Source: Ianthella basta (Eukaryota; Porifera; Demospongiae; Verongiida; Ianthellidae). From it: 64,000 nt of DNA. The stretch spans positions 861,206 through 925,205 of the forward strand of contig OZ025883.1 of the NCBI GenBank assembly GCA_964019415.1, given 5' to 3'. The notes below the pieces were generated by a model. The model was given only the letters and a program-made list of their open reading frames with translations, did not search any database and was not told the DNA's origin. Positions 3,875-62,223 of the stretch are shown here, piece by piece. Position 1 is the first letter of the stretch. Every line of letters begins with the position of its first letter. The position numbers and the translations under genes were made by a program.

Positions 3875-6800
3875 TTAATGAAGGTACACAGTGTAGAAGT
3901 GATCCAGGCTAGGCTTCATCTCTTTCTGCAGCTGGTCCCTAGGATGACAGAGGTTAAAAAAGAATATAGCAGGTAGATTATTAAATCTTGTTAATTATGT
4001 ACAGGATAGTATTCAGATCAATTAAAGACAATTAATTACTAATCACTAATCTAAATTATTATATATCTAGCTAATTCATCGTGTACTGTGAGTTCACCAT
4101 GCAATAGCTAGCTAGCTAGCATAGATGTCTTGAACACTATTGAGTGGACAACCTGCAGGAGCACCTAGCTAGCTAAATACAAACAAATAATTATGGTATA
4201 AGATATGGAGGATGACCATTAAACAAGTAAGTTTCTAAATTCATGCATTGCACACAGTTCCTTAAATGGCAGGTACCACCGTAGAGGCAACTACTCTGCC
4301 AGGCAAAACCAACCACTACTATCACTGTGTGGGGGCTTGTAAATGGACTAATATTTCAAGTTGCAATGGATACATAGCATGTGCTCGAGGTAACATCACT
4401 AGCTCTATGAACTAGACAATTAGCAGCAAGACTTACTGAAAAGCAGTGGCTTGGTTTATCCATGCAATTCTCTGTTGCAGATCTTGGATATTTTCTTTAA
4501 GACCCTTCCGCTTGTCAGCCAAGGCTGCCCTGAAGTTCTCAACCTGAGACTCCAACAAGCTTTTAAAGTTGTCCATGCACTGTCTCTTCACTTCTGGCTT
4601 ACCAGCATTGAGTTGCTTTTTCAATTGGTTAATGATCTGAAAGGGAAGACAGTGCAAGGAATGCTGAAAAGGTCAACTGTGACAGAATGCAATGCCAGAA
4701 TACTTTGATTGCCAGGCAATTACAAGTATATTTAATAATTAACATCTCAGATGGCTATTACACTGTATAACATTCAATGAATACTATCAATGGTTGAAAT
4801 GAATTCTTTATTATATCAGCCAAGCACAATTAACACTCAGGTAGCTACTATATTAGCATGCAGGATGTTTGTGCATGGACCCAAGACATTTTCATCAAAT
4901 GTCTAAGAGCAAGGCCTCATATAGAGACCCCGTGTGGAGACTGTGTAGAGCTAGCTATTATTATGTGTGTCAAAATGTTCTGAGTGGATGCCCATAAGTG
5001 CTTTATGTGTATATTTTCATGACACCTAAGGTTCACAGGGTTCATTGGGGTTAGGTTGGATATGAGAACTTAGCCCGGCTCTTACCCAGGTCCCAATTTC
5101 CGAATCGCTCATCCCTAACATCAGGGATTCCAGTTTATGCTGTTTTGGCCTTCCTGCAGGCATCAGGATCCAGTCTCTTATTCATAACACCAGGGGATTC
5201 CATTTTACCCTTTTGCTTTCCAGCAGGCATCAGCTTGCAGTCTCCCTTGCTGACGCACCTGTTCTTCATGTAAGCAAGTTTCAGCCTTTTCAAGCACCTT
5301 CCTTGAATTCAAATGAGTTCTGTCAGTGAGCTTTTCATACTAGACAGTACAGGAAAAGCATGTTCGTCCGACGTCCGTCCACCATCCGCACACTCTTTCA
5401 CATGGACTGTTCGCAATCTGCACACTCTTTCCATATACAAACGTGGACTGTCCACAAAAATTTAATACTAGAAAGTGCCGTTTTAATATAGCTTCAGTGT
5501 GGTTGCTGCAGTCATTGAGCATCTACAGCCTGATTTTTGTGCAAAACCTATCTTTCAGGAGCTACACAAGCCCTTGAAAGTGCCTTAATCATGCAAATGA
5601 CCCAAAACGTGGCGGACAGATCGACGAACTGAGCCACAAACCAAACACATAACCCCTGTTGCACAATTGCGCACAGGGTAATAAGGTATGAGGTAAGAAA
5701 TGTGAGAATGAGAATGCATATCATACATTCCACACCTTGTGTCATTCCTACATACCACACCCATGTTAATCCTACCACACCTCCATTATTCCTACCACAA
5801 CTCATGCCAGTCTCCTACCCTCATGTCACTCCTACCACACGTCATGTCGCTCCTACCACACCTCATGTCACTCCTACCACACCTCGTGTCACTCCTACCA
5901 CACCTCCTGTCATTCCTACCACACCTCATGTGTCACTCTTACCGCACCTTATGTCACTCCTATCACATCTGGGTGCATACAGTGAAACAAACATGCACAA
6001 AACATATATACATAGATATGTGGCAACGCCTCCATTCCTAACACACCGGAGGTCTGCACAGTGTAGGCATGAAGTGGTGGCTAACATTGAGGTGCACATA
6101 CTTTTCTGTCTTCTGCTTCTCTGCCTGCATGATCTGCACACCACCAGCCTCCCACTGCCACCTTCACCACTTTGTCGTCCTTGCGAAGACCGAGTGCAGA
6201 CATCGGGACTGCCTGCAGCCATGCCCCTAACTCCTTTCTCCTAGTTGCCAGGAGGTGAGCTCTTGTTGTCTGATCTGGGGCTGCCTCTAGTAAGGCTGCA
6301 GCTGCTGCTGTTACCCTGGGGGAGTCCCAGGCTCTCTGCTGGCCGGATGTTGGGGCAGTGGGTGGGGGTTCACTGTGCCCCTGACTCCACAATTTCAGTG
6401 CTGCGAGCTTGCATCTGCAGGGCCGTAGCACAAGGATGGAAACCGGTCCGGCCATGACATAGCATGCCTGACGTTCTAGGGGGGGTTGGGGGCATGCCCC
6501 CCCCCCAGGAAATGTTTGAAATCTGGATGCTTTAAGATCAATTCTGGGGCATTTCTGGGACTATCGGTATCCAACTCCCATGTGTTCAACAAGCTGAGTC
6601 TTAAAGCCTTTTGTTGCAGCAAACATGTCAATGGCCTTCTTGCGTGTGACGAATGATATTGAATCGGTCTTGATTTAGCTGTCTCAACAACAAGATCTTG
6701 CAATAGTCATGCTCACACTATGTACATAGCAACAGCTGTTGCATGTGACAGCTTGACTGTGTAGTACAACACTTCACAATAGAGTATCACAATAGATTAG

Positions 6801-9800
6801 CAGGTACTTAAGCATAGATGTAGGATCCCCATGCTTACATTATAGTAAGGTGTCTTATAACATCTACAGGATGATGTAACATTCATATTTTATGCAAACT
6901 TCATTGTAAGATGGCCACGCCGTGCAGTGCAGAAAATGATTGTTCATTTAAGTGCTATTTTACTTAGTACCTAGGCAAAATTCAGCCACCCGCTCCCGGT
7001 ATGGAGACCAATCAGAAAGTAGAGCATTGCAAACTTTTGGTTAGTGCCCCTCCCCAAATCTGAAAGTCTCTGAAAATGCTTATAGCTTTGATTTTTAGAA
7101 ATCCTGTCTTTGAGGATAAAACCAGTCCGGCCATGGCTGGACTGGCCAGACTGGGTGCTATGGCCCTGATCTGGGCACAACACATCCTGTAGCCTGGGTG
7201 GAACAATCTGCCTGACAAGGTCTAAGGATGGTGAGGCAGAACAGCAGGGACCCAAGGGATCTCCCTGCTGCACTCTCTCAGATGACTGGCTGACACTGCC
7301 CCCCCCCATAAAAAAGGGAGGACGGCGAGCCAAGTGCCGAAGGTACCAGAGGAAGTAGCTCTGGCACCAGCTCCTCTACTGCCACAATCATCTTATCTTG
7401 ATGAAGGCAATTGAATGCATTATTGAAATCAAGCTTGGTCTGGCTCCAGATTGTGCAGGAAAAGACGTGCTGCATGGACGGCTGCTTCTGCACCCAGAGG
7501 AACCCGTAACCCAACTGATGAGTTGCATGCAAGGTCCCCATTGCCTTCATGACGTGGTTTCCTGCATGCTTGGCTGCCAATCGTGGAAGAGTGCAACCCA
7601 TGGCGATTGGTTGCACTCCACCATCCCTCTTGTTCAACACGATAAGGGTTGCAGAAGAAACGGTGACACACAGAGTGGGATGCCTCACCTGCTAGGATGA
7701 AATTTATGAAGTTGGTTAGGGACTGAAGCAACATTTGACATCCTTCCACAGCCGAACTTCCCATCATGTCCTTTAAGTGCTAAGGGGTGCAGTCCAACTG
7801 GGCCACATAAAAAAACACAGGGGAAGAAACAGATGGCTTTAACCACCTCCTCAGTTGACACCTGAATGGGGGAAATGTGAGCCCCAGCTGAAACTGGAAG
7901 AGCAGTGGATTCACTGTGTGGCAAGGAGTGTTTCTACTATAAAGCAGAAAGGCTGTTCCTGTTAGCTTCAGCAATGGTGTCCTCAAAGGAGGCTAAACAA
8001 ATAGCTCCTCTGAAGCCCTCCTCCAGCGTAGCTGATACTCTAGCTGCTAGGTTCTCCAGAGAGTCCTGGGGGACTCTGCTTGTCATTATACCTGGGGCAC
8101 TTTGGGGCAGGTCTGAGTCAGCTTCCTCCCTTGTCATTGAGTTGACACAGGATGCCAAACTCCTACAATGGCCACCTCTCCTAGGCACTCTAGGGCAACG
8201 GGGAGCAAAGCAAAACAGATGTTCCCAAGACGATTCATTGATATTTGATGTAACCTGGTCGAGGATTGCAGCTAGCTTTCTAGAAGATGGATGGCAGGAA
8301 GCACGTGGAAGTCTCTTCAGGATCTTCACTGTGGAGCACAGAGGGTCAAACAAAGGGCACGGAAAGGGATCAGCTGTCTGGTCCTGACAATTCTCATCTA
8401 GGTGAGGGGAGACTGGCCGATTATGTGAGCCTGGGCATCGACTGCCAACTGGTCCATGAACGCATGCCAATCCAGTTTTAGTTACTGGCATGACACAATG
8501 ACAAACAGCACATTGGGTGCGGGAGGGATCGATATTGGTCAAATGATTGGGACTCTCTTCCAGCATCATATTCTCGTTAGGTTGTGACATTTCAACTGCT
8601 TGTGGTTGCTGTGGTCTCTGGATGCTAGATCGATCTTGCTGCTATCTCTTCCACGATGGTGGCGGCCATCTTGACATCTCTTTGCTCTCTCTCTATATAT
8701 ACTTCTCTCTATAATACATAGTTGTTATAATTCTATCATGCTATTAGCTAGGTGTCCACTACGTAACTGATTCAGAATAATGAATTACTGTATGGACCTT
8801 AAATTTTCCGGTACTATAAACTTTTGAAGTTTGCATGAGGAATTTCACATTTGTTGTGTTTTTATTTTTGCTGCATGCTGCTCATAAGAACCTGAACAAA
8901 GTGTTATTAAATCATGCAGTAGCACTGTCAAGGAAGATGGAAGAGATGTTGTCACAATTTATCTGAGAGAACCAGCATGCTCCCCTCAGGTGCATTCTCA
9001 TGCTCCTTCTGTTTTAACTGGACTATTAGAATATGATATAGGTGAATAATCATGTATCCCTTCTTATATTTATGACCTGTAAACAAAAGTGTATGTGGAA
9101 CCACATGCATCTACAGCTGTGAAGATGCTGTAAGCTATAGCTAAGCTCACTTTTCCTTTCACCTGTTCCAATTGATCTTCAGGACTAAATGCCCAAGCAA
9201 TGCCTTCTAGACCAAGAAACAGTACAAACCATGGGGGAATTACTGCATTGGCTGCATATATAAAACCCTGAGAAGAAAATACAATGAACAGAAAATGGAA
9301 GTCTCAATCACCAAAATTACACACACATCGCAACTTATTTTAATAAACGTAACGCACATTTTCGTTGTCCAGGATACATATTCCTTCATTTCTGGACGGA
9401 ATGTCACTAAATGCGGTAGGATTATGGAGAGGCATAGGCAGAGTAACTTGGCTGAGCTGAAATTTGGGTTAAAGTTGTTCTGTCCGAGTTTCTGCCACTT
9501 TTACAGTCGCCGCCATATCAAAGAGATAGGGGAAAGATCTGTTTCGTTGTCCAGAAACTCCTCCAATTTCGACCAATCGTCGCCAAACTTGGAAGAGTAT
9601 ATCAAAGCAGTACGGGGGGTGACTAAGGTGGTTAGTGCCTTTGCCACAGGACTCCTTTAGACGAAATGGATTGACGTAAGTAAATTCTGTATGTACGGAG
9701 TTTTACAGAACGAGTCTACAGAATGCTCCCAATTAAATAGATAGTTTTGATTGATTAAATGCTTAAATTACGAACCGTAGACTGGGAACCCACCCGAAGG

Positions 9801-12800
9801 GCGGGCATTCAGCTAGTAAAATATTAAGATACATACATGCATGCAGTGGGTATAATGGTACATATAATCGTAAGATTATACTGGTACTTGTACACTATAC
9901 CATGCAGTTATATACAGTCCCATGCACTGTTACTTGTACTACAAGCACTGAAATCTTGAACCGTTCATCTTATCCATGAACGTTACTCACCGCACCAACA
10001 TAACTGTCTGTGCTATGTTGATACCTCTTTTGCACACGATATTCTTTACCCTCCACTGTGATGAGTTCAGTAGGTGGCCCAATGTTTTTAAGATCCCATT
10101 TGAAGGGCTGAAGCTCTAACTGCCAGAAGAAAAATATGGCATTGCACAGATACTGCAATACTGAGTTTAATTCTGAATTTAATAACTAATTTACTTGTAG
10201 TCATGTGTACATGCACATTATATGTGCATAGAAGATTGAAGCATCCTTTCGGAATAATGCTGGACTCTTGCAGTAGGCCATTGTATCACACAAAGGCCAG
10301 CAGCTTGATGGAAACTAGCCTGCTACACCAGCATTACTGTCTCAGCGTAGGGGGGGGAGCTACTTAAAGTGACAATTAGTAATCTAATCACTTCTGCTAA
10401 TCATTCTCTATACAAAGACGGAAGAGTTACTTGGAGCTATTTCCCTATAGCTATAGTTGTAGCTCAGCCTTCAGTCTTGTGGAGTAGCACTGATCATGAG
10501 GGATCAATATATAGGGAAGGCTGGCTAGCTGCTTTGGTGTCCACCACCAGTAAAACACTTGTGGTTTCAACAAAAGCAGATAACACAAAACATTAATTAT
10601 GCATGCACTTATGTAAATTACTGTAACAATCAGATCTCATAAAATTTCACACTTTGATTGCATGGGCTCATTGAAGCATGGCATTCATGCAATATAGGAC
10701 CTTAAATGCATGACTTTGATGTCCATCCTGTAATCCTATATATAATGGAGCTAAGCCTGAGTATCCGTGTTCTGCATTCTTTGGAGCGTTTAGCGTTTTG
10801 CGACTCAAAAACGACGAGCTTCCTTATACAGCACTTCGGCCTACCTCCATTCGACTCGTCTGCGACACGAAAACAGCCACACGCTGTGCCAGTGCAGAGA
10901 AAATTGGGGAAGAGCAGCTGCCGTGGCCATGTTTTTCGACACCATCTTTGCCAAAGTTGCCAATTAGCATGAGGTGGCAGAGCAGGCAATGGTCTAGGAG
11001 AAGCACAATGCGGGGGCACCACCAACTGGGGCATAGAAGCTAACCATACCCAAGAGACAGGGACCGCGCTGCCCACAGGCAAATCCTGTGAAATGCTAGC
11101 TTATGGATGACTTTGCACTCTTCCACTAGCTATGGGCCGGTCTCCAGGTGTGACTACAGTTGATGAGCTTGACCTTACAGAGGATTGTCTAGAGCACTGT
11201 CAGTAGCAATAACAACAGGATCAAGACTGCTTGCGGTTAACATCAACTATGAGCCACTTTCTATTTCAATGAAGCTGAAACAGTTGCCTGTGCATGCAGC
11301 ATTTAGAGTTAGCTACCTGCAATACAAGTCAAGGCCAGACTTTCCACACCATTGCTATATTTACTTGCACAGGCCTCTGTTTTGTCATGACCAACTGTAT
11401 ATATGTTGTGCTTAGTCGCATAGGGGTACCACAACATCTTAAAGTTCTACTTAAACAACAAACCAATGACCATGACACACATTGCACTGACAGTGTTGCC
11501 TTTAAATATCCCGAAATTTATGACAATAATTTAATACAGTGTATCTGTTTTTTCTTCCGTTCTTGACTTACAGTATTATGTTCATTTGCCATGTTTGATA
11601 TTCTAATCATTGTCAGTCTGTCTGATGCACTGGCGTACAATGTGCTGGCTTTTGACATGCAAAAGGTGTCAGACAGGTCATAGATGACATACTGGGACCC
11701 AGCCCCCGGGCCGGCCCCCAAGTAGCTATTGTCAATATGCCAGCACCAGGTAGGTAGCCTTCGTTGGCGTCCATAGCAGGAAAGCCCGCCGAAGGTGGGC
11801 TTTCCTGCTAGTGTAATATAATCAGAACTTAAGCATGGGAGGGCTTGAGTATCCTCCACATGCACTGCATGCGCATGCAGTTATAAATCAACTGTAGCAT
11901 AACATCGTGCATGTTTCATGAAGAATATATCTATGGTAATTGACTTACCATTTGATCCAGCAGCCATCGTCCAAACTGTGGTCTAGCACGATATCCTTGT
12001 GCCATTTCAGTGCAACTGGCCATCTCCAAATCCAAACTGCATTAAAATAGACCTGATTAATTGTGCTTATAGAATATTGTCACAATCACATGTCACTATG
12101 CCCAGCATCATGCAACAATCACAATACAATATATGTACGATCATACCTATCTTGTTCAACCTCTGCCTGTGGTTCAACAGTGCTGATACTCAATTCTGCA
12201 ATCATTGCATCTGCAAGTTAACAGAAGTGCATGTGTCATGCAGACTTGCATACAAAAGTACATTTTACCACAAGCACCTTGAAAACATTTGGTCTTGTCA
12301 GTGGCAAACGTCTTCATTTCCTGTTCGTATGCCAGCATCAATGTCTTCATGGCCTCATCCAAGTACTCTGTTAGCTCCTTTTGGTAGTCTTCCCATTTCT
12401 CCTTATCTAACCTTTTACGATACACCTCCACTTTCCCTCGCACGTCCTCCTTGATTCCATTGTGAAGCTCATCAAACTGCATAACAATGTAAGCAGTGCA
12501 TACAGTGCAGTGTTCAGGTCTTTTGAGGGCTAGGATAATACCTGCTGCTAGGGTTATCTGTATACATAACATGCATGCATGTAGATTCTGCTGTGGATTA
12601 TTTAACAGTGAGAAACATGTACAAAAATGGCGTATGTATACTGAGATTATAACCCAATGTCAGCACATTAACATGCTGCGAAAATTAACTACCAAAGGAA
12701 ACGTCATGCCAGCCTGCTCATGCACCCATGGCTTGGTTATAATACCTACAGTTTGTCTATGCTATTATATACGTACTGCATGGGCCACATCTGAAATCAC

Positions 12801-14544
12801 CAACTAATTCCCATTTTTATACTCTGACATTCATAGACAATGAGGGTGAGGTAGAACCATGTAAATGTCAATCACGGTAGTTACTAAGCATTAGCAGGGG
12901 CTTGTTCTGCCTAGGGTTAAGTGAACAAGCATGCTGCAGTGTTTAGGCCAAACTATCAGTGAAAATGTATATTGGCAGCAGGTAAGTGTAGTCATGCTTT
13001 TTGTAATTCAGGGATACCCCTGTAAATGTACGTGACAATGGAAATGTTATACTGTATAGCACAAGAATTAGTACCCTCAACACATACCGCTTTACTAAAT
13101 TCTTCCATTGCACTGTCTACTTTCTTTCCAGACAGTTGCTGCAGTGTCTGTTCTGCAGCATCAGCTTGTGTACGCAAAGACTCCATAGACTTCACATCTC
13201 TGTCCAGTTCCTCCCTGCATTAAAAGAACTTCTTGGCATCATGCATGCAAAAGTAACCATTGTACGGGAGAGCTAGACTAGGATGAGTATGGCATGAAGC
13301 TTGCAGTATATCCAAACAAATAGATGACTACTGCTATAAAAACATCATCTGCATGCTACATAGCTACGTAATATGATATTTATATAATATATTCAGTACG
13401 TTCGTTTGCTTGTCTGTTCGTTCGATTCAAGCAAAAAACTACTACACAGGACGTGACCAAACTCTTAGGGATTATAAAGTGGGGCTCCAGATGTGTTCAC
13501 CACAGGTCTAGCTCAATAGACTACATTCGCGACTGACGGCCATTTTATTAATTATCACTTCTTGACTTCCGGCTATCGTGCGATGTGATTCACTGTCATC
13601 CAATGATCGACTTTTAAACTTGGTCGTTATAACAGCTACCCTCCGTTGCTAACAGCACAGATTCTTCATATCAGCCTGGGTCCAACTCGCTGTTGTGCGA
13701 CTCGCCGTCGCCGTGGCAGAATCCTGCCAAAGGCGGGCGCCCTACTAGTAATGATATATAGCAGCTGTCTAATCATTGAGTTGTGCACCCCGTGCAGTGT
13801 AAGATGACAAAGTATGTTATATGTGTGGGGGACAGTGGCCAGACTATTGGTCATTTACTCTGTTTCTTGCACAACCTCATTGCACAAACCATAGCTACTT
13901 GGATGCTGTTGCACTGTACCGTAAAAATTGCAAAATGTGAATGACCAAAGTTTGAACAATTGTGCTCGTTGTTGAATAAGGTTTAAACATGGTACAGCAG
14001 ATAATTCTACAAAATTACACAAATTCATCAAGTGCATACTTGGCTGCTGCCAAGCAGTATAAGAGTACTTTATTCTAGTGCATTCTAATTTCACAAGAAA
14101 ATCTGTTTATTAAAATATTAGTGCCCAAGCCATCTGGGCCAATATATACTTACACTCCTTCTCCACACCACTGCTTGAATTGCTCCATCATTTCAACCAA
14201 CTTTTGCATGAAGTTTGTGCACGACTCCCAGTGCCTTCCACACTTGGTCTGGATAGCACTGCCAGATAGATACTCCTACAATAATACCAAGCAGAATGTG
14301 TACACGTGCATTCTATCCCTGCATGGCCAGATTCAATGCTGTCTGTTGGCCTATACATATGCATGTGCTTATCAAACTGACATTGTGGAGCAAAGGCCGC
14401 AGATACACAGACCCTACATGCAGTGCATTGTGACTTACCCAATTTATAAAGCATTATTAACACATACGCTTACATGAAGCAGTGACTCAAATCTTTTGAA
14501 CTCTGTCCATCTCTCTTTCCAATTCCTCTTCAATGCTCCACGGC
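3875..14544 (-). CDS. KM-1 exons 6-15: helical, membrane and HR2-like region
   Basis: Ten small exons encode the C-terminal half. Exons 6-11 are charged and helical (for example KWEDYQKELTEYLDEAMKTL in exon 9). Exon 13 holds the only strongly hydrophobic stretch (VIPPWFVLFLGLEGIAWAF). Exon 14 is a long amphipathic helix (KRQCMDNFKSLLESQVENF) and exon 15 ends the protein with FYTVYLH before TAA at 3875-3877. The placement parallels HR1-TM-HR2 of mitofusins, although only one membrane-length segment is evident here where mitofusins have two. Sequence similarity beyond the GTPase is weak by eye, so the HR1/HR2 labels are positional. Confidence 0.75.
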
Positions 14545-17500
14545 CTACATTAACATAATAGAATTGCAACAGTGAAAGATATGTTTATACACATGCATGC
14601 ACCAATCATCCATGTATTAAAATGTTCACACTAATCTCTGCATAAGATGCAAATAACATTGCAGCTGCCAGGTCTTCAAAGGCCAGGCAATCAATCACTG
14701 CAACATAATATGCAAACAATTTTTTGTGACATTTACATTTCGCAGATGCTCCTGGCCTGAGTGTGCTCATGATTTTACTTTACATGCGGCCCTTGTATCC
14801 CCTAATGCCCAACAATTCACCTTTTTCCATGTGCACGAGCGTCTGCTGTACAATTCATGGATTCTTGATAATAAAAATGCCCCATGAAATTGTATAAATG
14901 TACTCAGTATGTAGACGATGGATGCATGGTTTGTATTTTCCTAGAAAGGCCCAGGTCATTTTCTGACAATGTGAAGAATGCATGCATATAGATTGGCAAC
15001 ACATGCTTCAAAGGAGTTCTTGCAAAAGTACTTCAAGTGGCTGTATGCAGCTTTTCTTGCTGGCATGATGAAGGCACGTGTATAGCTTGTTATCCTGTAT
15101 AGCACATATACGTGCACAGACAATATATAACAGATTACGTTTGTGGAGTGGTGCACACTACAGGCCTACTGTATAATTATTATGACTATACCTGATTCAG
15201 AACAAGGTTTGCCTTTCTTCTCATTTTCCTGCACCTTGCAAGCCTCCTTGCCAGATACAAAGAAGGTCCAATCCAAAACTGCATTGGCTTGCAAGCCTTG
15301 GACTAGAAACTCTTCCACCTTCTGATGATGTTGTCTTTTCACTTTTGCAACTTTAGCATCTCGTCTACTTGTATCCTCATCATCATCACTATCATCACCT
15401 CCATCCACCACCAGGTCCCAGTGGTTGAACAGGATGAACAGGTTCTTGCTGACATTTGGCAACTGGCAATTAACACTCTCCAGAAACCTCTTGACCTGTG
15501 GCACAAAGAGCATACAAAAAAGTGAACAGGGCCGTAGCACCCAGTCCGGCTGGTCCGGCCATGGCCGGACCGGTTTTGCTGCTGGAACAAAAACTCTAAA
15601 TATTGAAGATATGCATTCTAAACACACTTTTAAATTGGGGGGGGGGGGGGGGGGGATACTGGCCTAAGGTTAAACAACGATCTAGAAGTAGAGTGGTCTT
15701 GTTACAGTGCTGCAGGACTTAGTTTGAACAAGGAATAGCCAGACACTTAGTCCTCTAACCAACCTTAACGACAGCAGCCATTTTACGGATGTTGTATGAT
15801 GTTTTTGACGTTTTCTGATGTGTAAAATTGTGTTAATCGATCGTCATGCAAAATCAGACAGCACGGTAGCGCTTCAGCCATGTACAGCGGATTTATGCAA
15901 CCTTGCAACAGTTCCCACACCATGGACAGTTGTTACCTAGAATACGGACTGGTACTGTAGTCACCTATTATATATCACCCTGTTCGTATCCTAGGTAACG
16001 ACTAGCCAGGTATGGGAACTGTTGCAAGGTTGCATAAATCCGCTGTACATGGATGTATGCATGCAGCATGGTAGTATATATTTGTACATGGGAACATGTA
16101 CGTAGCTTGAATGGGCATATGCATGCAATAGGATAGTCTCCTGTGGCAACCCTTGTTATTGCACACTCACATGTACACTAGCACTATAATACGCAGACGG
16201 AGAAACAGGAGATGGTAGCAAGACCACAAGTGCGGCAAAATGTGGGCAGATGTAGGGATGGTGAAAACGTATTCAAAGTCAGCGCATGTTAATGACCTGG
16301 GCTTTGCATGGACCAGCCCTCCTTGTTGCATGGACCGGCTGGCCCCCTTCTTTGCATGGACCGGCCCTCCTCCTGTTTTCGGAGGAAACATTTTTACACA
16401 CCCTTAATTTCCATTGATGGTGTCTTCTAGTCAAGGGAAGGAGAGATTTGTGCTGCCTAGCATCAGATAGACAACCAAAAAACCACTAGATTTCGATTTT
16501 TAATGCACTATCTTCTTATTTCAAAGCACTGTATTACCTGTTACATGGCACTTGATTGCCTTTCCTGCTGTAAGTGCCTGTTGGTCTATGTTACATTTGA
16601 TCATACTCATTGGAGTGTTGATGGGCCTAGAATTGCTCCAAAAGTACTCACAGAATATCTAAATTTCAAAAATTTTCCTGGGGCATGCCCGCAGCCCCCC
16701 TAGTTTGCATCACGTCATCTAAGGCCTGACCGGTTTTGATCTTGGTGCTACGGCCCTGGTGAACATTGAGAATATAGGGATTATCGACCCCAGATACATA
16801 GCTGAAATTCCATTGAAACAGCAAGCTGAAATGTATAATGTGATTGTTGTATATGCTTCACTCAACTCAAGTACTGTACAAGACGGTACTAACAGTAAAT
16901 GTGAAAGAGCTACTTGTATCTCTGAGACCTGCATGCACAATTACCAGTACTTCCAATGTGCTTTTCCCATTACACACATACACAAAGACATCTGCATCAC
17001 CACAGGTCTTCTTTACCAGATCATCAACTTCAGCATCAGTGCTGAGGCCAGGGCTATATAACAAAAGAGTGGTTATGCAATACTTCTCATCTCAGACAGT
17101 TAGCTGCTTCAATGGTATGACAGAAATGAAGGGTAATGTGTAGCACACTGCTACTCAGACTCATTCGTGAATGACTCAACAAAACAACAAGGAACAACCA
17201 AATGTGTGTATATATATAGTGCATTGCTGCACAGATGTACTTATGCATGACTCAACAAACGACTACAACCCAACGAAGTCAGAACAACTCATAATGATGT
17301 GAACACCGATGTTGCTGTGAACACACGCAAAGTGGTCACATCTCATGCCATAGAGGAATGCTGACATGGGCACTAACTGGTTTTGTTTCCTAGAAGTTTA
17401 CTGTGAGATCATGTAATCATGAAATCAAAAGACACTGACAGGCACACATGCTTATACACTAGTGGATTAACTACACATCATGAATATGGATATTTGGATA

Positions 17501-19789
17501 ATGCTTTTGAAAAGCCTATAATATGCATGTGATTGAATCATTTTGCAAGTACGTAGCATACGGCATAGCGATATATACTCGCGCTGCCATGTATGTTGGC
17601 ATAACTACACACGTATATATAGCTCCAGTGCATGAAGAGCACATACCTGTCAATTAGGACAACATCTTGGTTCAACCACATGCAGCTGTCTTGGGCAGGC
17701 AAAAATATTTCAAGGACCTCCCCAGCTTTGAGGCTTCCTTGCTCCATGTGGTTGGCCAATTCTTCCAATGTCTACATAAAACAGGATTCAATAATGCTAG
17801 CATGCAGAAACCAGCTTGAGCAGGATTATGCGATAGCAGCCAACCAGTATTATATATGTTCTTATGTTCTCACATGGACATACACACACAATGTACACAA
17901 TGTACCTACACAGTATATGGATGCATACCTACCAGCAGCTGCAGATGCAAGCCTCCAGTCTTCACATACCCATCTGCACTGCCATCTTGGCTTGGTGGTA
18001 CACCAGTTATGGTGCAAAAGCATCTAGTGGTCGAGCCATCCCCAACAGGAAGCACTTTCTTCTTGATGAGGGCATTGATAATGGTGCTCTTGCCATTACT
18101 TGTATTCCCCAGGAAAGCTACCTTCATCTGTTCTTGCTTAGTTGCCTCTACCATTGTTTGCAGGCTGTTCCGAATCTTGGAGCATGTATCTAATGCACTT
18201 GTAGGACAGTCCTGTACCTGCTCAAGAAAGGCCTGGACGATGTTCAGGTGCTTCAAGAATGCTCTTACACAGGCAGCCAAAACATGTTTTGCATGCTGAA
18301 AATCCAGCTATGTAGAATTAAGCATGCAAGCTGGGTAAATGCATACTGAGTGTGTAATTATGTTACAGTGTGTGTCAATTGACATGTCTTGTGGAACAGC
18401 CACAGTATGCATTCTTGTACATTGCATGGACATCTTACATTGCATGTATATGTTACGCGCAAATCTGCGCAAAGCTGCAACCTTGGGCATGTGACTGGGA
18501 GTGAACTGCAGCAGTTATGGGTTTTGTCAAGCATAGTCCCACCATATGTAGATTCTCCACGTCTCTACAGCCTGGCATATCCAGGCAGCCTCATATGCGT
18601 GTACACTGTGTACAGTATCTTACAATAATGTTTATGTGCACACAGTATGCATGCCGAGTAGGCATTGTATCTGTGTGCCATTAGAGTATAGCCTCTGGCC
18701 ATACCCAAGTCAAATGAGATCCTGATCCCGATGATACGTATGCAGTTAACTGCATTCACCCTGTTTGAAGTGCATGCAGCATACCATATACCTACCATAT
18801 GACCTGCTGTCAACCAAACAATTCTACACACCAAATATTTAGAAGACTTACTGGATTGTATGGGATGCAGCATACTACCTCTCCTATAGCCTGCTGTCAA
18901 CCTTATACAATGCAATATAGCTATAGTTACACATCATGCACACGAAAGGGCTTACCGGATTCACTTTCCCCAACTCTTCAAGCACGGTTGCTGCATCAGG
19001 CCTTTGGTCAGGTTCATCATTCAAGCAGCTCAGAATCAGTGGTCTCAGAGAGTAGTTTGCGGGCAAACGAGCCAGGTCATCACGGCGCCTGTCCTTTTCG
19101 GGAATTCCACCGATGTTCTGCAGCCCAGGATTCGGTTCCTGCTGCGTCGCGATTTCCAGCATCAGCACACCGTAAGAGAAGATGTCAATCTTCTCATTAT
19201 AGCAAGGGTTCGCAGCCAGGGCTTCCGGAGGCATGTAGGGTACGGCTCCAGGTTGTTTCGTCTGGAAGTAAGCTGCAGTCTTCAGCTTTGATTGCCCGAG
19301 GTCGCCAAGCTTGGGTCGTCCTGTGTTATCGAGTAGGACATTCTTGGCCGAGAGGTCGCGGTGTACCAGAGGAGGATTCTGTGCGTGAAGGAAATGGATT
19401 CCCTTCGCTACGTCTAGACAGAGTTGAAACTGCCTTCGGTAACTTAGTCTTCCTTTCTCCGCACGCAGCAGCTGTCTGAGGTCTTGGTTCATCCTCTCCA
19501 TCACCAGGATGGGCTCTTCGCTATCTTGGTCGTAGAAGGCTCCCTTGAAACCTACGATCAATGGATGGGTGATGCTTTCCAAGCGCGTGCACTCACTCTG
19601 GAAGGCTTTCAGCGCTTCGTCGCCCTGGCCGTCCCGTACCGCATCTAACAGAACGCCGTGAATCCTCTTTACTGCCACGGGAAGCCCATTCAGTTCTCCT
19701 TCATAAACTGTTCCATTCCCTCCACGGTTGATCTCCTTGCCAACAGTCAAAGAGGAAGGCCTAAGAGCTAGATGTTTGGAAAGCGACAT
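3875..19789 (-). CDS. KM-1: kinase-mitofusin-like GTPase fusion protein (15 exons, 971 aa)
   Basis: Exons in coding order: 18956-19789, 17933-18295, 17647-17771, 16945-17053, 15192-15495, 14474-14544, 14154-14275, 13088-13214, 12278-12476, 12147-12210, 11949-12036, 9991-10119, 9151-9267, 4437-4636, 3875-3938. Every junction is GT-AG, all phases agree and the exons sum to 2916 bp. Residues 1-278 are a protein kinase. Residues about 330-580 are a dynamin-family GTPase of mitofusin/Fzo type: GNTSNGKS P-loop, STT switch I, DSPG, and NHWD in the G4 position (mitofusins have NRWD). Residues about 580-845 are helical, about 850-872 hydrophobic (membrane), and 885-971 coiled coil like mitofusin HR2. 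The likely role is membrane tethering or remodelling by GTP hydrolysis, controlled by an attached kinase; this is inferred. No lesion was seen. Introns 4, 7, 11, 12 and 13 are swollen by transposons. Confidence 0.85.
4909..5675. mobile_element. Unclassified insertion in KM-1 intron 13
   Basis: KM-2 reads directly from the conserved sequence ending caaatgcctaaag into the following aaggtgagatatg block (about 23255-23290). KM-1 has about 770 extra bases between the same two blocks. The insert has no recognised coding sequence, and I could not define its termini or a target duplication. Confidence 0.4.
5740..5968. repeat. 21-bp minisatellite in KM-1 intron 13
   Basis: Imperfect tandem copies of a roughly 21-bp unit, about cactcctaccacacctcatgt. 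The open frames across it on both strands are artefacts of the repeat. The same repeat occurs at the same intron in KM-2 and KM-3. Confidence 0.85.
6045..8690 (-). mobile_element. Degenerate non-LTR retrotransposon (RT ORF) in KM-1 intron 13
   Basis: On the minus strand an open segment from about 8590 to 7937 begins the ORF and includes a cysteine/histidine-rich stretch (CAVCHCVMP). It is followed in shifting frames by a reverse-transcriptase region: a KRDGGVQPIA block near 7630, NNAFNCLHQDKM near 7400, and a QQGDPLGP block near 7260. The C-terminal part resumes at about 6410-6081 (LLATRRKELGAWLQAVP). At least two frameshifts and a nested transposon at 6418-7168 break it, so it is dead. The family resembles non-LTR RTs common in sponges and cnidarians; I cannot name the clade. 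KM-2, KM-3 and KM-4 lack it. Confidence 0.75.
6418..7168. mobile_element. TIR transposon nested in the non-LTR element, 5-bp TSD
   Basis: The termini are inverted: cagggccgtagcac at the left and, read inverted, cagggccatagcac at the right. The element is flanked by the 5-bp direct repeat atctg (6413-6417 and 7169-7173). It splits the retrotransposon ORF, whose coding continues on both sides, so it is the younger insertion. It shares termini and internal ggtccggccatgg segments with the element at 15527-16758. It carries no transposase and is non-autonomous. CAG-type ends with 5-bp duplications resemble the hAT5 group. Confidence 0.85.
9328..9816 (+). mobile_element. Helitron-like non-autonomous element H1 (KM-1 intron 12)
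   Basis: The element starts TC after an A (9327) and ends CTAG before a T (9817). A GC-rich stem-loop (cccacccgaagggcggg) lies about 10 bp inside the 3' end. These are the standard Helitron termini, with no target duplication. A second copy of the same family, inverted, is H6 at 53202-53688 (487 versus 489 bp). A short open frame shared by both is not recognised. Confidence 0.75.
10734..11811 (+). mobile_element. Helitron-like non-autonomous element H2 (KM-1 intron 11)
   Basis: The 5' end is A|TCCTATATATAATGGAGC and the 3' end is a stem-loop (aagcccgccgaaggtgggctt) followed by CTAG|T. KM-2 and KM-3 run straight from the gtccatc block to the ataatcagaacttaag block, giving the empty site. Open frames inside (for example 10702-11082 minus) match nothing I recognise. 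The 5' end resembles that of H5. Confidence 0.75.
13379..13748 (+). mobile_element. Helitron-like element H3 (KM-1 intron 7)
   Basis: It begins tttatataatata with TT instead of TC, probably a mutated terminus, followed by a gttcgtttgcttgtctg region like that of H4. It ends in a stem-loop (cctgccaaaggcggg) and CTAG before T. It has no coding content. Confidence 0.6.
15192..18295 (-). CDS. KM-1 exons 2-5: mitofusin/Fzo-type GTPase domain
   Basis: Exon 2 carries the P-loop (residues 341-348, GNTSNGKS) and switch I threonines (about 367-368). The exon 3/4 junction splits the serine of DSPG (440-443). Exon 5 carries the G4 motif NHWD (501-504) and the FFVSGKEAC stretch that matches the G5-proximal FFVSAKE of mitofusins. 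Between G4 and G5 is an acidic insert (GGDDSDDDEDTS) not known from mitofusins and variable among the array genes. Intron 4 (15496-16944) contains a 1232-bp TIR transposon. Family assignment rests on the NxWD G4 and on the helical C-terminal architecture. Confidence 0.85.
15527..16758. mobile_element. 1.23-kb TIR transposon in KM-1 intron 4, 5-bp TSD
   Basis: Perfect 15-bp terminal inverted repeats (CAGGGCCGTAGCACC) are flanked by the direct repeat gtgaa (15522-15526, 16759-16763). The empty site is visible in KM-2 and KM-3, which read aagcgaacattgag across this point. No transposase is seen. The interior includes a 19-bp G tract (15637-15655) and a nested hairpin element (15879-16051). It is the same family as 6418-7168. 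Confidence 0.9.
15879..16051. repeat. 173-bp hairpin element nested in the TIR transposon
   Basis: The left arm starts catgtacagcggatttatgc and returns as its inverse ending at 16051. The outer 43 bp match with one difference. An inner imperfect repeat (gttacctag / ctaggtaac) extends the fold. It looks like a small MITE or foldback element. Confidence 0.7.
18956..19789 (-). CDS. KM-1 exon 1: protein kinase domain (TKL-like)
   Basis: One 278-codon exon encodes a full kinase fold. It has a glycine-rich loop RGGNGTVYEG (22-31), VAVK lysine K41, helix-C glutamate E66, catalytic loop HRDLSAKN (143-150), DLG (163-165) replacing the usual DFG, PPE (187-189), DIFSYG (202-207) and the late arginine in DQRPDA. 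All residues needed for phosphotransfer are present, so it should be active. The HRDLSAKN loop and overall pattern suggest a tyrosine-kinase-like (TKL) group serine/threonine kinase. The start is the ATG opening MSLSKHL, shared by all four copies. The exon ends phase 0 at a GTAAGC donor right after the domain, which is what makes the fusion. The antisense open frame in this exon is a shadow. Confidence 0.9.
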
Positions 19790-23335: not shown

Positions 23336-23428
23336 CCTAGGTCATTCCAATATACCACACATCATGTCACTCCTACCACACCTCATGCGTCACTCCTACC
23401 ATACCTCATGTCAATCGTACCACACCTA
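23336..23428. repeat. 21-bp minisatellite in KM-2 intron 13 (short)
   Basis: About four imperfect units of the same cactcctaccacacctcatg repeat as in KM-1 and KM-3, at the equivalent intron position. Confidence 0.75.
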
Positions 23429-25499: not shown

Positions 25500-25698
25500 T
25501 CAGAAAGGGGGTTGGTTCTCTAATACCAGCTTCACAACAGGGTTGAAAGCCTTGCCGACGTTTCGACCAGATGCTCTGGTCTTCTTCAGGGCGAAGATCA
25601 TCTTCGCCCTGAAGAAGACCAGAGCATCTGGTCGAAACGTCGGCAAGGCTTTCAACCCTGTTGTGAAGCTGGTATTAGAGAACCAACCCCCTTTCTGA
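25500..25698. repeat. Perfect 199-bp palindrome (99-bp arms, 1-base centre) in KM-2 intron 8
   Basis: The bases from 25500 to 25598 are the exact reverse complement of 25600-25698, with a single c at 25599. The right arm contains CTGAAGA (25609-25615), a 7-bp stem with a 3-base loop (25617-25633), then GAAAC (25634-25638), which is the layout of a hammerhead-ribozyme core. No paralogue has it, so it is an insertion or an assembly fold-back. Confidence 0.9.
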
Positions 25699-25743
25699 TG
25701 CCTGAGCCAGCTGAGAAGCCCTCACTTTATTTATTATATGTAA

Positions 25744-27175: not shown

Positions 27176-27176
<1 letters not shown>

Positions 27177-27207: not shown

Positions 27208-27209
27208 GC

Positions 27210-45500: not shown

Positions 45501-45505
45501 GACAT
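33507..45505 (-). CDS. KM-3: kinase-mitofusin-like GTPase fusion protein (15 exons, 971 aa)
   Basis: Exons: 44672-45505, 43891-44256, 43604-43728, 43178-43286, 42445-42757, 40593-40663, 40308-40429, 39387-39513, 38568-38766, 38433-38496, 38211-38307, 36213-36353, 35860-35976, 34057-34223, 33507-33570. All junctions are GT-AG with consistent phase, total 2916 bp, no lesion. The kinase keeps K41, HRDLSAKN and DLG; the GTPase keeps GSTSNGKS, DSPG and NLWD. The membrane exon reads PPSLALVLAIQGIVWAV. Exon 14 carries a 33-bp in-frame deletion (residues KENIQDLQQRI region) relative to paralogues, shortening the HR2-like helix by 11 residues. An in-frame upstream ATG at 45544 would add 13 residues; I prefer the start shared by all copies. 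The MfnL stop codon lies about 530 bp upstream. Confidence 0.85.
34553..34985. repeat. 21-bp minisatellite in KM-3 intron 13 (long)
   Basis: About 20 imperfect units related to cactcctaccacacctcatgt, with higher-order variants (aatcctaccacacc). It is the longest of the three orthologous arrays. The open frames across it are artefacts. Confidence 0.85.
35341..35736 (+). mobile_element. Helitron-like element H4 (KM-3 intron 13)
   Basis: A|TCTAATATATAAAGCC at the 5' end, then a tgtctgtctgtgtg tract. The 3' end is a perfect stem-loop (gcctgccaaaggcaggc) and CTAG|T. KM-1 supplies the empty site (about 9020-9045). Confidence 0.8.
36466..37417 (-). mobile_element. Helitron-like element H5 (KM-3 intron 11)
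   Basis: On the minus strand it starts A|TCTTATTATAATGGAGCC and ends with the stem-loop gggtgccgaaggcaccc followed by CTAG|T. KM-2 shows the empty site at about 24150-24165. No recognised coding. Confidence 0.75.
39600..40155. mobile_element. Composite insertion in KM-3 intron 7 with internal duplication
   Basis: It contains two imperfect direct copies of a roughly 110-bp segment (cttagaggggtgc...cacctagctgcc, near 39712 and 39890), an 18-bp G tract (39866-39883), and a 3' part ending in a Helitron-like stem-loop and cattcagctatag. Boundaries are uncertain; the KM-1 intron has H3 nearby instead. Confidence 0.45.
42445..44256 (-). CDS. KM-3 exons 2-5: mitofusin/Fzo-type GTPase domain
   Basis: P-loop GSTSNGKS, switch I STTSCF, DSPG across the exon 3/4 junction, NLWD in exon 5, FFVSGKEAC near G5. 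The acidic insert after G4 is the long form. Exon 5 is two codons shorter at its 3' end than in KM-2. Confidence 0.85.
42909..43084. mobile_element. pogo/Tigger-like MITE in KM-3 intron 4
   Basis: Terminal inverted repeats cagtggaacctc and gagttccactg flanked by TA (42907-42908, 43085-43086); 176 bp, no coding. It is the orthologous insertion of 29335-29493. Confidence 0.8.
44672..45505 (-). CDS. KM-3 exon 1: protein kinase domain
   Basis: A 278-codon kinase with all catalytic residues. It differs from KM-1 and KM-2 at the activation segment (SQQPGALPY versus TKQPGAVPY), where it matches KM-4. Elsewhere (CYTEK, HTQDPP) it matches KM-2, giving a mosaic pattern. Confidence 0.9.
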
Positions 45506-46036: not shown

Positions 46037-48714
46037 CTAACTGTCCACAGTCAAACCCTCGCACTGTTCACCAAGGTATTCAGCATTGAACAACCTGAAA
46101 ACTTCAACCACACTGTCCAGTTCTTGCCTGTATTGGATGAGAGCATAAGGAGAGTCACGGCAAGAAATGCATACGTGGGAATATCAGATAGAATGTACAG
46201 CAAAACACAGTCACAACACACAGTCACAACACACAGTCACAACACACATGCACTTCTTTATAATACTAGTCTCAATGTAGCCGGTTCAACTCTCATGAAG
46301 ACTCACTGGAGGGCCTCTGCTCTCCTGTGGCAGTTTTGCAGTGTCTCCCCCATTTCATCAAGATCTGCCTTTCTCTTCTCATGGACAAGAATAACCTCTG
46401 CCAAACCTGCTAGCATTTCATCACGTTCAGATCTCAGGCTGTTCTCAATTGTCTTATGGCAGTTTTCTTTCACAGCATCCAATTCCTCCTGCAGCTTCCC
46501 CATCAGATGAGCAGCAACCTACCAAGACAGCATACAGAACACAAATGCGGGAGAGGACTATGTACACACAAACATGCTAGTTAATAACTGCAAGGAACGA
46601 ATGCGTAAAAGCAGGGACTTTAGTAGACCTATAGAATACCTTTAGAAGCAAACGTACCTGTTCCTTGACCTGCGTAATCTTCTCTGAGTTAGAATCCTTC
46701 CTCTGCCATTGTACACATTTATAGGCAACAGTGAGTGAGGCACAACTGGCAAGGGTCACTGTTCCTGTAGCAACACCGAAGAGCACGTGATTGATGGGAG
46801 AGACATCTGGCATCCACTCAGACATGAGCACTTGAGGGTCCACTACAACCTATATAGCGGTATGAACAGTGCATGGAGGAAAGGAGTCAATAGTGGCTGC
46901 AGCATTACATAACATCATACAGAAATGCACATCTGTATAACTCACTCCTGCTGCAATTCCTACAGCAGCTGTAACGGCACCAGCAGCTGCACTGGTACTT
47001 TCTAGTGTGAACAACAACATACATGGATCACCATACCATCCACACAGTCCCACTAAGTAAGGACTGAATATTATAAACTTACTATTATTACAACACACAC
47101 ACAACTGCATAATGTGTGTATTGTTCCTCACCGAGTAGAGTGACTTGAGGTAGTGTTTAAAGTTGAGCTGAGGTTTAAGTGCCCCTCCCAGTGAAGCAGC
47201 AGCAACAGAAGGAAGTGACACACTGCGAGTGGAGAGGCTGCAGGAGAAAGCGCGGCAGAAGTCGACGAAATTGGAGAAAGCGATCATGTATATGTATAGG
47301 GGATATCCAAACACATACACCATACATGTCACCATCCTAATGGTATATACTGTACTTACAGCTCTGTTTTGTCCTTATCACAAAGCTGCTTGTAATCGCC
47401 TACACAAAGATCAAGCACACACAGAGACAACACTGACAAGGAACACTGCAGTACTTGCTGTACCCACACACACGTACATCTGATACTCCTCAGTGCCTCC
47501 TCATGTCGTTGCTGTAGGTGTGCTCGCAGTTCCCTTGTGCCATCCTTCGTCACTTGATCCAAGTGGTCCAGTAGAGTCAATGTGTACTGCTCTACAGCAG
47601 ATGGGTTGAGCAAGGCATCAAACCCTTTGATTTCATCATCAATCTGTCTTCTGGCATGTTCAAATATGCAGTCGACCTATATAGGTGTATGGTAACATAT
47701 GAAGTTTGTGCCATTTGGCCAATAGTGTGTCACACCTATAACCCGTACATATTTAGTGCTCATACGTACTTTTTCTTCTGTGTCATTTACAGAAGTTTCC
47801 GTCAGTGCTGCCCACTTCATCTCATCTAAAAGGTCCATTTTTCCTTGCACAAGTTGAGTGATTCTCTCCTCTTCTGATGAGGACTCATCACCATTCCTTT
47901 GCGTTAATGTGTACAAAAGGGACATAACAGAATCACCCCAGTCATCAAACCACTCCTCCCCAGCCATTGGCAGGTGGACTCTGCAGGTGTATGTGCATCT
48001 TGGCATGATGCCCACACCAAAAGACACAGTACATGTTACCAATACACCAATCTGTATAAGAGGTCTATGTGATATGTGTGCTCAATTGGAAATAACATGT
48101 ACGCATATGCTTACATTTTAGCCGTGCACTCCTCCAGCAATAGCCCCAAGAAGTGCTTCATTTTGCAGGCCACCTTTACGCACTCATAGCTATGACTCTT
48201 GAACACTGCTCACCTCCACGGCCTGTTCCTTTGCGGACTCAGAGATCTCCAGGTGTCCCTGTATACCCATACCCAATGGGAGCATCCTATTCCGAAAAAG
48301 CGCGTTTATCACCGTGCTCTTCCCGTTGCTAGTTCGACCGAAGAAGACCACCTTCATCTGGTCCCTCGCCAACATGTCCTTAATGCCCTCCACCTTCAAC
48401 CCCAACTGGGCCACATTCTGCTGCTTGGCGCTCTTTATATCCTCAAGGAGGCCTTCACTCCCAGTCAGCTGCCCCGAAAGACGCCTGAAGGCTTTAGCTA
48501 TCTTCTCCTTGGCTAGCCCAAACTTCTTTAAGGGTGAGTTCCATCCCCCCTCGGCCCCTGAAAAGCGCCGGTCTCCCGGGGAATAGTATTGGCTACCTCC
48601 AGACGAGGGTATGCTGGACTGTTTGCTGAGAGCAGTTCGCCTTTTGGCGGCAGTCGTGGTACGCGAACGATCTCGGAAAGCAGACGTGGCGTCAGCCATT
48701 TTAGCCATATGCAT
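46037..48714 (-). CDS. MfnL: mitofusin-like protein lacking most of the GTPase domain (10 exons, 571 aa)
   Basis: Exons: 48214-48714, 48115-48173, 47770-47980, 47478-47676, 47360-47399, 47083-47237, 46946-47001, 46658-46849, 46307-46518, 46037-46127. Phases agree throughout (1716 bp) and intron 1 is only 40 bp. The N-terminus has a mitofusin-like SPLKKFGLAKEKI block (60-72) and a perfect P-loop GRTSNGKS (126-133). After LPLGMG (145-150) the sequence jumps directly to helical sequence; switch I, DSPG, NxWD and G5 are absent. Later come two hydrophobic segments (about 392-407 and 428-450) and an HR2-like coiled coil (472-571, ending in a short tail before TAG). It could bind membranes and pair through HR2 but should not hydrolyse GTP. 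Start alternatives are ATGs at 48714, 48708 and 48699 (the last has the best context). The exon 6 donor choice is the least certain junction. Its start lies 145 bp from the KM-4 stop. Confidence 0.75.
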
Positions 48715-49696
48715 GCGTTGAGTCCTGCAATTGCGCAATGCCGACAGCTATATAATAGGTAGGTGCATAAAAATGGCACAAAGCTAAAGCTAGCTATACA
48801 TATATATCATGGGTCAAGTCGAATTCGAAGCTGTTATGCACAAACACTCTCTCCCTGACTCAATGAAGGTACACAATGCAGAAGCGATCCAGGATAGGCT
48901 TCACCTCTTGCTGCAGCTGGACCCTGGAATGACAGAGGTAAAAAAGAATAGCTAGATAGCTGCTATAGCTAGCTAATTCATTGTGTACTTAACAACTTCA
49001 CCATGCAATAGCTCTAGCTAGCTAGTATAGATGTCTTGAACACTACCTAGTGGACGCAACCTGCAGGAGCTACTAGCTAGCTAAATACAAATGAATAAGG
49101 TATAAGATATGGAGGGTGACCGTTAAACAGTTAAGGTTCTAAACAATTAATGCATTACATATAGCTTCTTAAATGGCAGGTACCACCGTAGAGGCAACTA
49201 CTCTGCCAGGTAAAACCAACCACTGCAATCACTGTGTGGGGTCTTGCAAATGGACTACACACTTCAGGTTGCAATGGGTACATATATAGCATGACGTGAC
49301 ATCACTTGCTATATGAACTAGACAGTTAGCAGCGAGACTCACTGAAAATCAGTGGCTTGTTTTATCCATGCAATTCTCTGCTGCAGATCTTGGAGATTTT
49401 CTTTAAGACCCTTCCGCTTGTCAGCCAAGGCTGCCCTGAAGCTCTCAACCTGAGACTCCAAGAGGCTTTTAAAGTTGTCCATGCACTGTCTCTTTACTTC
49501 TGGCTTCCTAGCATCAAGTTGCTCTTTCAAGTGGTTAATGATCTGAAAGGGGAAGACAGTGACAAGGAATGCTGAAAAGGTCAACTGTGACAGAATGCAA
49601 TACCAAAATACTTTGATTGCCAGGCAATTACTAGTATATTTATGAATTAACATCTCAGATGGCTGATACTGTAGAGGCTCATAGTTGCATTGATGA

Positions 49697-61389: not shown

Positions 61390-62223
61390 CGGATTCACTT
61401 TCCCCAACTCTTCAAGCACGGCTGCTGCATCAGGCCTTTGGTCGGGTTCATCATTCAAGCAGCTCAGAATCAGTGGTCTCAGAGGGTAGTTTGCGGGCAA
61501 AGAAGCCAGGTCATCACGGCGCCTGTCCTTCTCGGGAATTCCACCGATGTTCTGCAGCCCAGGATTCGGCTCCTGCTGCGTCGCGATTTCCAGCATCAGC
61601 ACACCGTAAGAGAAGATGTCAATCTTCTCATTATAGCAAGGGTTCGCAGCCAGGGCTTCCGGAGGCATGTAGGGTACGGCTCCAGGTTGCTGCGACTGGA
61701 AGTAAGCTGCAGTCTTCAGCTTTGATTGCCCGAGGTCGCCAAGCTTGGCTCGTCCAGTGTTATCGAGTAGGACATTCTTGGCGGAGAGGTCGCGGTGTAC
61801 CAGCGGAGGATCCTGTGCATGGAGGAAGTAGATTCCCTTCGCTATGTCTAGACAGAGTTGAAACTGCCTTCGGTAACTTAGTCTCCCTTTCTCCGCACGC
61901 AGCAGCTGCCTGAGGTCTTGATTCATCCTCTCCATCACCAGGATAGGCTCTTCGCTATCTTGGTCGTAGAAGGCTCCCTCGAAACCCACGATCAGTGGAT
62001 GGGTGATGCTTTCCAAGCGCGTGCACTCACTCTGGAAGGCTTTCAACACTTCGTCGCCCTGGCCGTCCCGTACCGCATCTAACAAAACGCCGTGAATCAT
62101 CTTGACTGCCACGGGACGCCCATTCAGTTCTCCTCCATAAACAGTTCCATTCCCTCCACGGTTGATCTCCCTGCCAACAGTCAAAGAGGAAGGCCTGGGA
62201 TCTAGATGTTTGGAAAGCGACAT
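61390..62223 (-). CDS. KM-4 exon 1: protein kinase domain
   Basis: 278 codons, intact. All catalytic motifs are present (VAVK, HRDLSAKN, DLG, PPE). The start is ATG at 62221-62223 and the donor is GTAAGT after VNP. The activation segment is like KM-3 (SQQPG), with CYNEK like KM-1. Confidence 0.9.

Follow-up and report, generated by a model that had tools for sequence, protein, structure and literature searches.

ROCO proteins such as LRRK2 combine a kinase and a GTPase in one chain, with a Roc-COR GTPase, a kinase C-terminal to it and leucine-rich repeats (LRR). Mitofusins (MFN1, MFN2 and Fzo1) carry a different GTPase, with the motifs GxTSNGKST, DSPG and N-x-W-D, and are ordinarily thought to be switched by kinases acting in trans. 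In the sponge Ianthella basta, a window of 64,000 nucleotides (contig OZ025883.1, here C16; C16:861206-925205) contains a tandem family of genes, termed KM, in which an exon for a likely TKL-type kinase is predicted to be spliced to a mitofusin-type GTPase.

LRRK2 binds mitofusins and raises the GTP binding of MFN1 (PMC3959816), and is therefore a precedent in trans for linking the two activities. Kinases have also been joined repeatedly to receptor-like parts. In choanoflagellates and sponges, fusions of G-protein-coupled receptors (GPCRs) with kinases, named GPCR-TKL/K and GPCR-TK, place the kinase C-terminal to a seven-transmembrane (7TM) domain and, unlike KM, include no GTPase (PMC12716839). 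Such kinase-7TM fusions arose repeatedly, with GPCR-TKs in both choanoflagellates and sponges, and provide a precedent for kinase shuffling (PMC12716839).

Kinase-Kelch proteins share with KM an N-terminal kinase that is followed by another domain. The Dysidea avara protein named by NCBI ‘probable serine/threonine-protein kinase drkD isoform X2’ (P0071) has its kinase at residues 22-289 and Kelch repeats at 549-765; three unnamed proteins (P0079, P0086 and P0088) have the same order, and in I. basta related kinase exons precede Kelch exons. These proteins differ from KM in having a Kelch propeller in place of the GTPase, and the Dysidea protein also has a long coiled-coil-like stretch between the domains.

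The KM GTPase has all three mitofusin motifs and a KM profile aligns colinearly with mitofusin-like proteins, but KM has a kinase for an N-terminus, an acidic insert in the G domain and no match to PF04799. Like ROCO proteins, KM would hold kinase and GTPase in one chain, and ROCO4 is among the PDB matches of its kinase. In contrast to them, the GTPase is of the Dynamin_N/mitofusin type instead of Roc-COR, the kinase is N-terminal to it and no LRR was found. Neither Roc (PF08477) nor COR matched KM-1 or KM-3 at an E value of 0.1, in agreement with an initial annotation of this window, which had set the GTPase apart from that of ROCO/LRRK.

The KM gene models and the predicted protein

The window was analyzed together with the whole genome (209 Mb, 96 contigs). 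Exons were read from conserved blocks in an alignment (MAFFT) of four tandem units on the minus strand. Introns are conserved between the window copies as well, so a whole-window comparison of open reading frames was uninformative; exons were instead separated from introns by comparison with distant copies and with a genuine mitofusin. The resulting features are as follows.

18956..19789, minus strand: KM-1 exon 1, complete kinase, likely TKL-type, from ATG to the phase-0 donor CCG/GTAAGC; HRDLSAKN, DLG and VAVK
17933..18307, minus strand: KM-1 exon 2, start of the mitofusin-type GTPase with a helix, G1 (GNTSNGKST) and the G2 region; earliest in-frame ATG is codon 52
17647..17771, minus strand: KM-1 exon 3, GTPase as far as the LID of the G3 motif
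16945..17053, minus strand: KM-1 exon 4, completes DSPG, the G3 motif
15192..15495, minus strand: KM-1 exon 5, FNHWD (G4-like), then the acidic insert
14474..14544, minus strand: KM-1 exon 6, from the alignment
14154..14275, minus strand: KM-1 exon 7, from the alignment
13088..13214, minus strand: KM-1 exon 8, from the alignment
12278..12476, minus strand: KM-1 exon 9, coiled-coil-like by eye
12147..12210, minus strand: KM-1 exon 10, from the alignment
11949..12036, minus strand: KM-1 exon 11, from the alignment
10000..10119, minus strand: KM-1 exon 12, weak donor
9151..9267, minus strand: KM-1 exon 13, strongest hydrophobic segment, mean hydropathy 1.75
4437..4636, minus strand: KM-1 exon 15, HR2-like by position and appearance only
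3875..3938, minus strand: KM-1 exon 16, last exon, with the stop
22488..31907, minus strand: KM-2, 15 exons; kinase 31907-31074, exon 2 30668-30291
33507..45505, minus strand: KM-3, 15 exons; kinase 45505-44672, exon 2 44268-43891; open frame of 968 residues
48860..62223, minus strand: KM-4, 15 exons; kinase 62223-61390, exon 2 60832-60455, last exon 48923-48860; open frame
63923..63986, minus strand: final exon of a fifth KM gene; the kinase of this gene is beyond the window (C16:934478-935299)

KM-1 to KM-4 share one order of 15 exons (numbered 1-13, 15 and 16; the model contains no exon 14), with GT-AG at all 56 introns and an identical series of phases at the 14 junctions (0,0,2,0,1,0,2,0,1,2,0,0,0,2). 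From copy to copy, exons vary in length by multiples of three only, a constraint that intron lengths do not follow. The frame is open over all exons in KM-1, KM-3 and KM-4, predicting proteins of 972, 968 and 984 residues, respectively. The least certain boundary of the model is the poor donor of exon 12 (GTTTTT, in KM-1 GTTGGT).

Much of this had been anticipated by the initial annotation. Its outer coordinates (3875 and 62223) and its kinase donors (18956 and 44672) are exact, the 15 exons that it had read in frame in KM-1 and KM-3 are also in frame in KM-4, and the complete kinase exon with a phase-0 splice site behind it is present in all four copies. The fifth copy it had glimpsed exists, though the piece described as its tip is the last exon of the next gene. 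The acceptor of exon 2 requires correction: in place of the CAG at 18295/44256, a TAG 12 nucleotides further out (18307/44268) is more likely, as all four copies preserve it, whereas KM-2 has lost the inner AG, and as it agrees with the acceptor position of distant copies. Both sites keep phase 0.

The kinase exon measures 834 nucleotides in each of KM-1 to KM-4 and is followed by CCG/GTAAGC or CCG/GTAAGT in phase 0, beyond which the frame ends after 23, 23, 16 and 14 residues, respectively. Exon 2 of these copies starts at a splice acceptor, and no in-frame ATG occurs in it before codon 51 or 52, immediately ahead of the P-loop; in the first exon of the genuine mitofusin, the frame passes the same point uninterrupted from its own N-terminus. 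A donor-like site in phase 0 closes the kinase at 30 of 30 loci judged by eye (10 KM, 20 others). Kinase and GTPase are thus very probably parts of one gene, the arrangement of a TKL-like kinase exon spliced in phase 0 to a mitofusin-type GTPase in tandem copies that had been proposed earlier and that exon order, phases and open frames support. The linker between the two would be about 10 residues long, and intact KM proteins would measure about 970-985 residues.

In profile searches, a single KM-3 frame matched PK_Tyr_Ser-Thr (PF07714, 3.3e-40, residues 14-273) and Dynamin_N (8.2e-21, residues 341-504). The best PDB match of the kinase is CTR1 (3e-31), followed by an EGFR chain, TNNI3K, WNK1, ROCO4, TYK2 and B-raf (among the best 60 of 1216), which is consistent with a kinase likely of the TKL type. 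Seven distinct MFN1/MFN2 chain sequences matched residues 46-366 of the GTPase half (5e-48 to 2e-46), with MFN1 (5e-48) and MFN2 (3e-47) at the top. The next matches, Fzo1 (0.001) and a bacterial dynamin-like protein, span 0.001-0.0025. Motifs that we take to be G1 (GxTSNGKST), G3 (DSPG) and a G4-like N-x-W-D can be read directly in the KM GTPase, and hhalign aligned a KM profile colinearly with five mitofusin-like proteins over 597 columns. Judged by sequence comparison, the GTPase is of the mitofusin type.

The tail is mitofusin-like by position only, as far as comparison of profiles indicates. PF04799 (Fzo_mitofusin, the HR2 region) gave no match in KM-1 or KM-3 at an E value of 0.1, and its single match in the genome (C16:740924) belongs to the genuine mitofusin. 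One hydrophobic segment, in exon 13, is moderate in strength (mean hydropathy 1.5-1.9, compared with 1.88 in the mitofusin P0001). The domain assignments made earlier fare unequally: a kinase, likely TKL-like and complete in one exon with its catalytic residues kept, and the mitofusin-type GTPase are supported by the profile and PDB matches; for the membrane region there is a single candidate segment of moderate hydrophobicity; and the HR2-like homology of the tail, compared alone, finds no significant support in hhalign and no PF04799 match. Taken together, the kinase and the mitofusin-type GTPase appear to form a real and probably functional new domain architecture, built from known kinds (a likely TKL-type kinase and a dynamin-superfamily GTPase).

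KM pairs and the wider kinase exon family

Beyond the window, the genome offers a parent-like mitofusin in the same cluster, a kinase exon with at least 140 matches and further partners for it. The genuine mitofusin has its first exon at about 746.7k on C16 (L043) and its PF04799 part at 740.9k; no kinase match lies in the 1.8 kb upstream of it, and none within 6 kb among the kinase matches listed. A kinase-free, mitofusin-like duplicate, gene M, has its first exon inside the window.

48193..48747, minus strand: first exon of gene M, 84% identical to L043 over 183 residues

Compared with the genuine mitofusin, gene M is without 14 residues just after the P-loop. A match at C16:938031 has a Dynamin_N score and a frame length equal to those of gene M. 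Two other candidates for mitofusins were dropped by eye, a GTPase at C13:32228 as EHD-like and a match on C12 as dynamin.

Kinase-GTPase pairs number 13, 12 of them on C16 and one on C13. The pairing used 14 of 35 Dynamin_N matches, leaving out the two of gene-M type and 19 others. A kinase lies within 6 kb upstream of 13 of the 14 GTPase first exons of the KM/mitofusin type, the exception being the genuine mitofusin; with the two weak gene-M matches included, the count is 13 of 16. The phase-0 donor is found by pattern in 12 of the 13 pairs and by position only in the 780k pair. All 13 KM kinases retain HRD, DLG, the P-loop and the beta-3 lysine (as VAVK, VAAK or VAIK), and 12 are stop-free over the matched stretch. 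Kinase and GTPase distances correlate across the 13 pairs (r = 0.957; 0 of 9999 permutations as high), with a GTPase segment of only 82-90 residues. In six pairwise comparisons for each part, with KM-2 among the copies, the kinase has a ratio of nonsynonymous to synonymous substitution (dN/dS) of 0.14-0.30, against 0.36-0.58 in the remainder of the protein. By these measures the KM halves are under purifying selection and evolve in a coupled way.

The kinase exon itself is far more widespread. At E <= 1e-20 at least 140 matches occur in the genome, the 13 KM kinases included, a lower bound because 140 of 906 candidates were scored. Downstream partners comprise Kelch, NHL and Ras-like domains besides the mitofusin-type GTPase. 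The pairing lists held 50 of 150 Kelch matches (selected by eye from contigs that carry family kinases) and 91 of 150 NHL matches (C11 only). Among the matches listed, 58 of the 140 kinases have a partner (24 Kelch, 21 NHL, 13 GTPase) and 82 have none, while 25 of the 50 Kelch and 68 of the 91 NHL matches lack a kinase within 6 kb; a partner within 1.5 kb is downstream for 18 kinases and upstream for three. Partner exons begin at a phase-0 acceptor in four of five loci inspected (Kelch at L045, L053 and L050, NHL at L046; the exception is L052), and a pattern check of nine partner loci (L045-L053) found a phase-0 donor-like site after the kinase in most. At L051 (C3:4523500-4530500), kinase and Ras-like domain share one unspliced frame. 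As the same exon family precedes Kelch, NHL and Ras-like domains, its kinase appears to serve as a common output, with the C-terminal part as the variable input.

Some observations accompany these loci. The Ras match of L051 begins at profile position 48, its P-loop part seemingly missing, and of four related loci at C3:4.50-4.56 Mb, three are open over 467-473 codons. At L047 (C9:7882300-7889500), the kinase exon precedes a 418-codon frame with coiled-coil-like repeats, which may be a further type of partner; one small downstream piece checked against Pfam gave no match.

Proposed origin and mechanism, and competing explanations

The best explanation as a whole, to which we assign a probability of roughly 0.6, combines a fusion protein, its origin by exon shuffling and a mechanism driven by GTP. 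A kinase exon with its donor would have landed ahead of a duplicated copy of the mitofusin gene nearby, the mitofusin N-terminus would have been replaced by the kinase, and the pair would then have spread by tandem duplication. The KM protein may sit on a membrane. In mitofusin structures, the helix ahead of the G domain packs with the G domain. The KM kinase directly precedes this helix, and so GTP-dependent pairing of G domains could bring two kinases together, which may then phosphorylate each other and convert the state of a membrane or organelle into a phosphorylation signal. This mechanism, taken by itself, is put forward tentatively, as possible rather than probable. The genes themselves are probably functional. 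A role in defence, raised by the initial annotation along with self-controlled membrane remodelling, would be a guess, prompted by the tandem expansion and the broken copies.

If the explanation is true, membrane tethering and phosphorylation signalling would be under one switch in one chain. To our knowledge, such a link otherwise occurs only between separate proteins, such as LRRK2 and mitofusins, or with a different GTPase, as in ROCO. The genuine mitofusin lies within the cluster and more than 100 loci share the kinase exon, so that the family would also make it possible to read how phase-0 exon shuffling built up a large repertoire of receptor-like genes, probably in an early animal lineage. 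A wider proposal is speculative and, as a joint claim, unlikely: that one portable kinase exon with a phase-0 donor serves as a plug-in signalling head on at least four kinds of receptor or effector, Kelch and NHL propellers among them, in more than 100 mostly tandem genes, as an animal counterpart of plant receptor-kinase and NLR (nucleotide-binding leucine-rich repeat) repertoires, with KM as a kinase-coupled sensor of the membranes of organelles or invaders.

A number of observations weigh against the explanation as a whole. In KM-2, kinase codon 71 is TAA (31697-31695), and this copy is probably a pseudogene. Five of the 13 pairs (975k, 983k, 993k, 1001k and C13) have in-frame ATGs in or upstream of the open stretch of the GTPase exon; exon 2 of the 975k pair is truncated and lies 3.1 kb from the kinase, and the spacing in the 780k pair is 5.5 kb. 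The correlation of distances draws on a short GTPase segment, and joint duplication of neighbouring genes would explain it as well. The tail after the GTPase, compared alone, reached hhalign probabilities of 11% (E 0.003) and 2% (E 0.02), neither significant. At other loci of the kinase family, L048 has no GT donor at the expected place, and the donor-like sites of L046, L050 and L053, at varying distances past the kinase, could be due to chance. In a tree of 42 kinases, the 13 KM kinases form two groups, and a single clade is not rejected (approximately unbiased test, p-AU 0.327), so that a single origin is possible, not demonstrated.

The protein database adds a further adverse point: no kinase-mitofusin fusion appeared among 13 mitofusin- or dynamin-like matches, 9 kinase matches and 67 kinase, Kelch or kinase-Kelch matches. 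The 13 mitofusin- or dynamin-like matches, none with a kinase family in the Pfam listing, include none named as sponge and hence provide no test. The absence says little, as many close matches are to unnamed proteins 336-402 residues long, which probably represent single exons. A literature search, by title or start of abstract, found neither a kinase-mitofusin fusion nor such a family of kinase exons.

The strongest competitor reverses the direction of signalling: the fused kinase would phosphorylate its own GTPase or tail and toggle membrane tethering or fusion in cis. The attachment of the kinase right ahead of the stretch that precedes the G domain fits this alternative, as do the catalytic motifs kept in both halves, and LRRK2 binds mitofusins and changes the GTP binding of MFN1 (PMC3959816). 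However, the same kinase family also stands ahead of Kelch, NHL and Ras-like partners, which suggests a general output rather than a mitofusin regulator, and the tail, on which tethering would depend, is where the protein resembles mitofusins least. We regard regulation in cis as somewhat unlikely, and it is the main rival to GTP-driven pairing of the kinases.

A neutral or decaying array, in which exon shuffling made the fusion and most copies have no function, is improbable. The stop in KM-2, the truncated exon 2 of the 975k copy and the loss of part of the GTPase in gene M would be expected of decay; in the C-terminal part dN/dS reaches 0.58, and exons 8, 12 and 13 diverge fast. Nevertheless, three of the four copies in the window keep every splice site and an open frame of about 970 codons, the kinase dN/dS stays at 0.14-0.30, and among the 13 kinases 12 are without a stop in the matched stretch and all keep their motifs.

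Least credible, and very improbable, is a pair of neighbouring genes (a single-exon kinase and a separate GTPase) duplicated in tandem as a unit, for which the whole kinase domain in one exon, the in-frame stop 14-23 residues past the donor, the distance correlation and the in-frame ATGs of five pairs may be cited, since exon 2 of KM-1 to KM-4 opens with an acceptor and lacks any ATG until past codon 50, a phase-0 donor-like site ends the kinase at all 30 loci, the stop past the donor shifts from copy to copy, L051 joins kinase and Ras-like domain in a single frame and the NCBI set holds the fused kinase-Kelch protein of Dysidea avara.

Other features of the window

Just upstream of KM-2, the beginning of the kinase exon is present a second time in part (32442-32576, minus strand), with 90% identity over about 100 nucleotides. 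At 591-2786 (minus strand), a frame of 731 residues matches RVT_1 (8e-29), with weak aspartyl protease matches and a zinc-knuckle-like motif seen by eye; it is the remnant of a retroelement of the long terminal repeat type.

The interval between exons 13 and 15 contains a short conserved block in all four copies (9050-9076, 23432-23458, 35758-35784 and 50521-50547, minus strand). An acceptor-like CAG stands ahead of it, and an in-frame TGA follows after eight residues in KM-1, KM-2 and KM-4, not in KM-3. The frame does not fit an internal exon, and the block was left out of the model; it could be an alternative last exon. The same intron of KM-1, KM-2 and KM-3 houses related minisatellites with a 21-base unit (TACCACACCTCATGTCACTCC and variants), at 5753-5967, 23353-23427 and 34685-34988, respectively.

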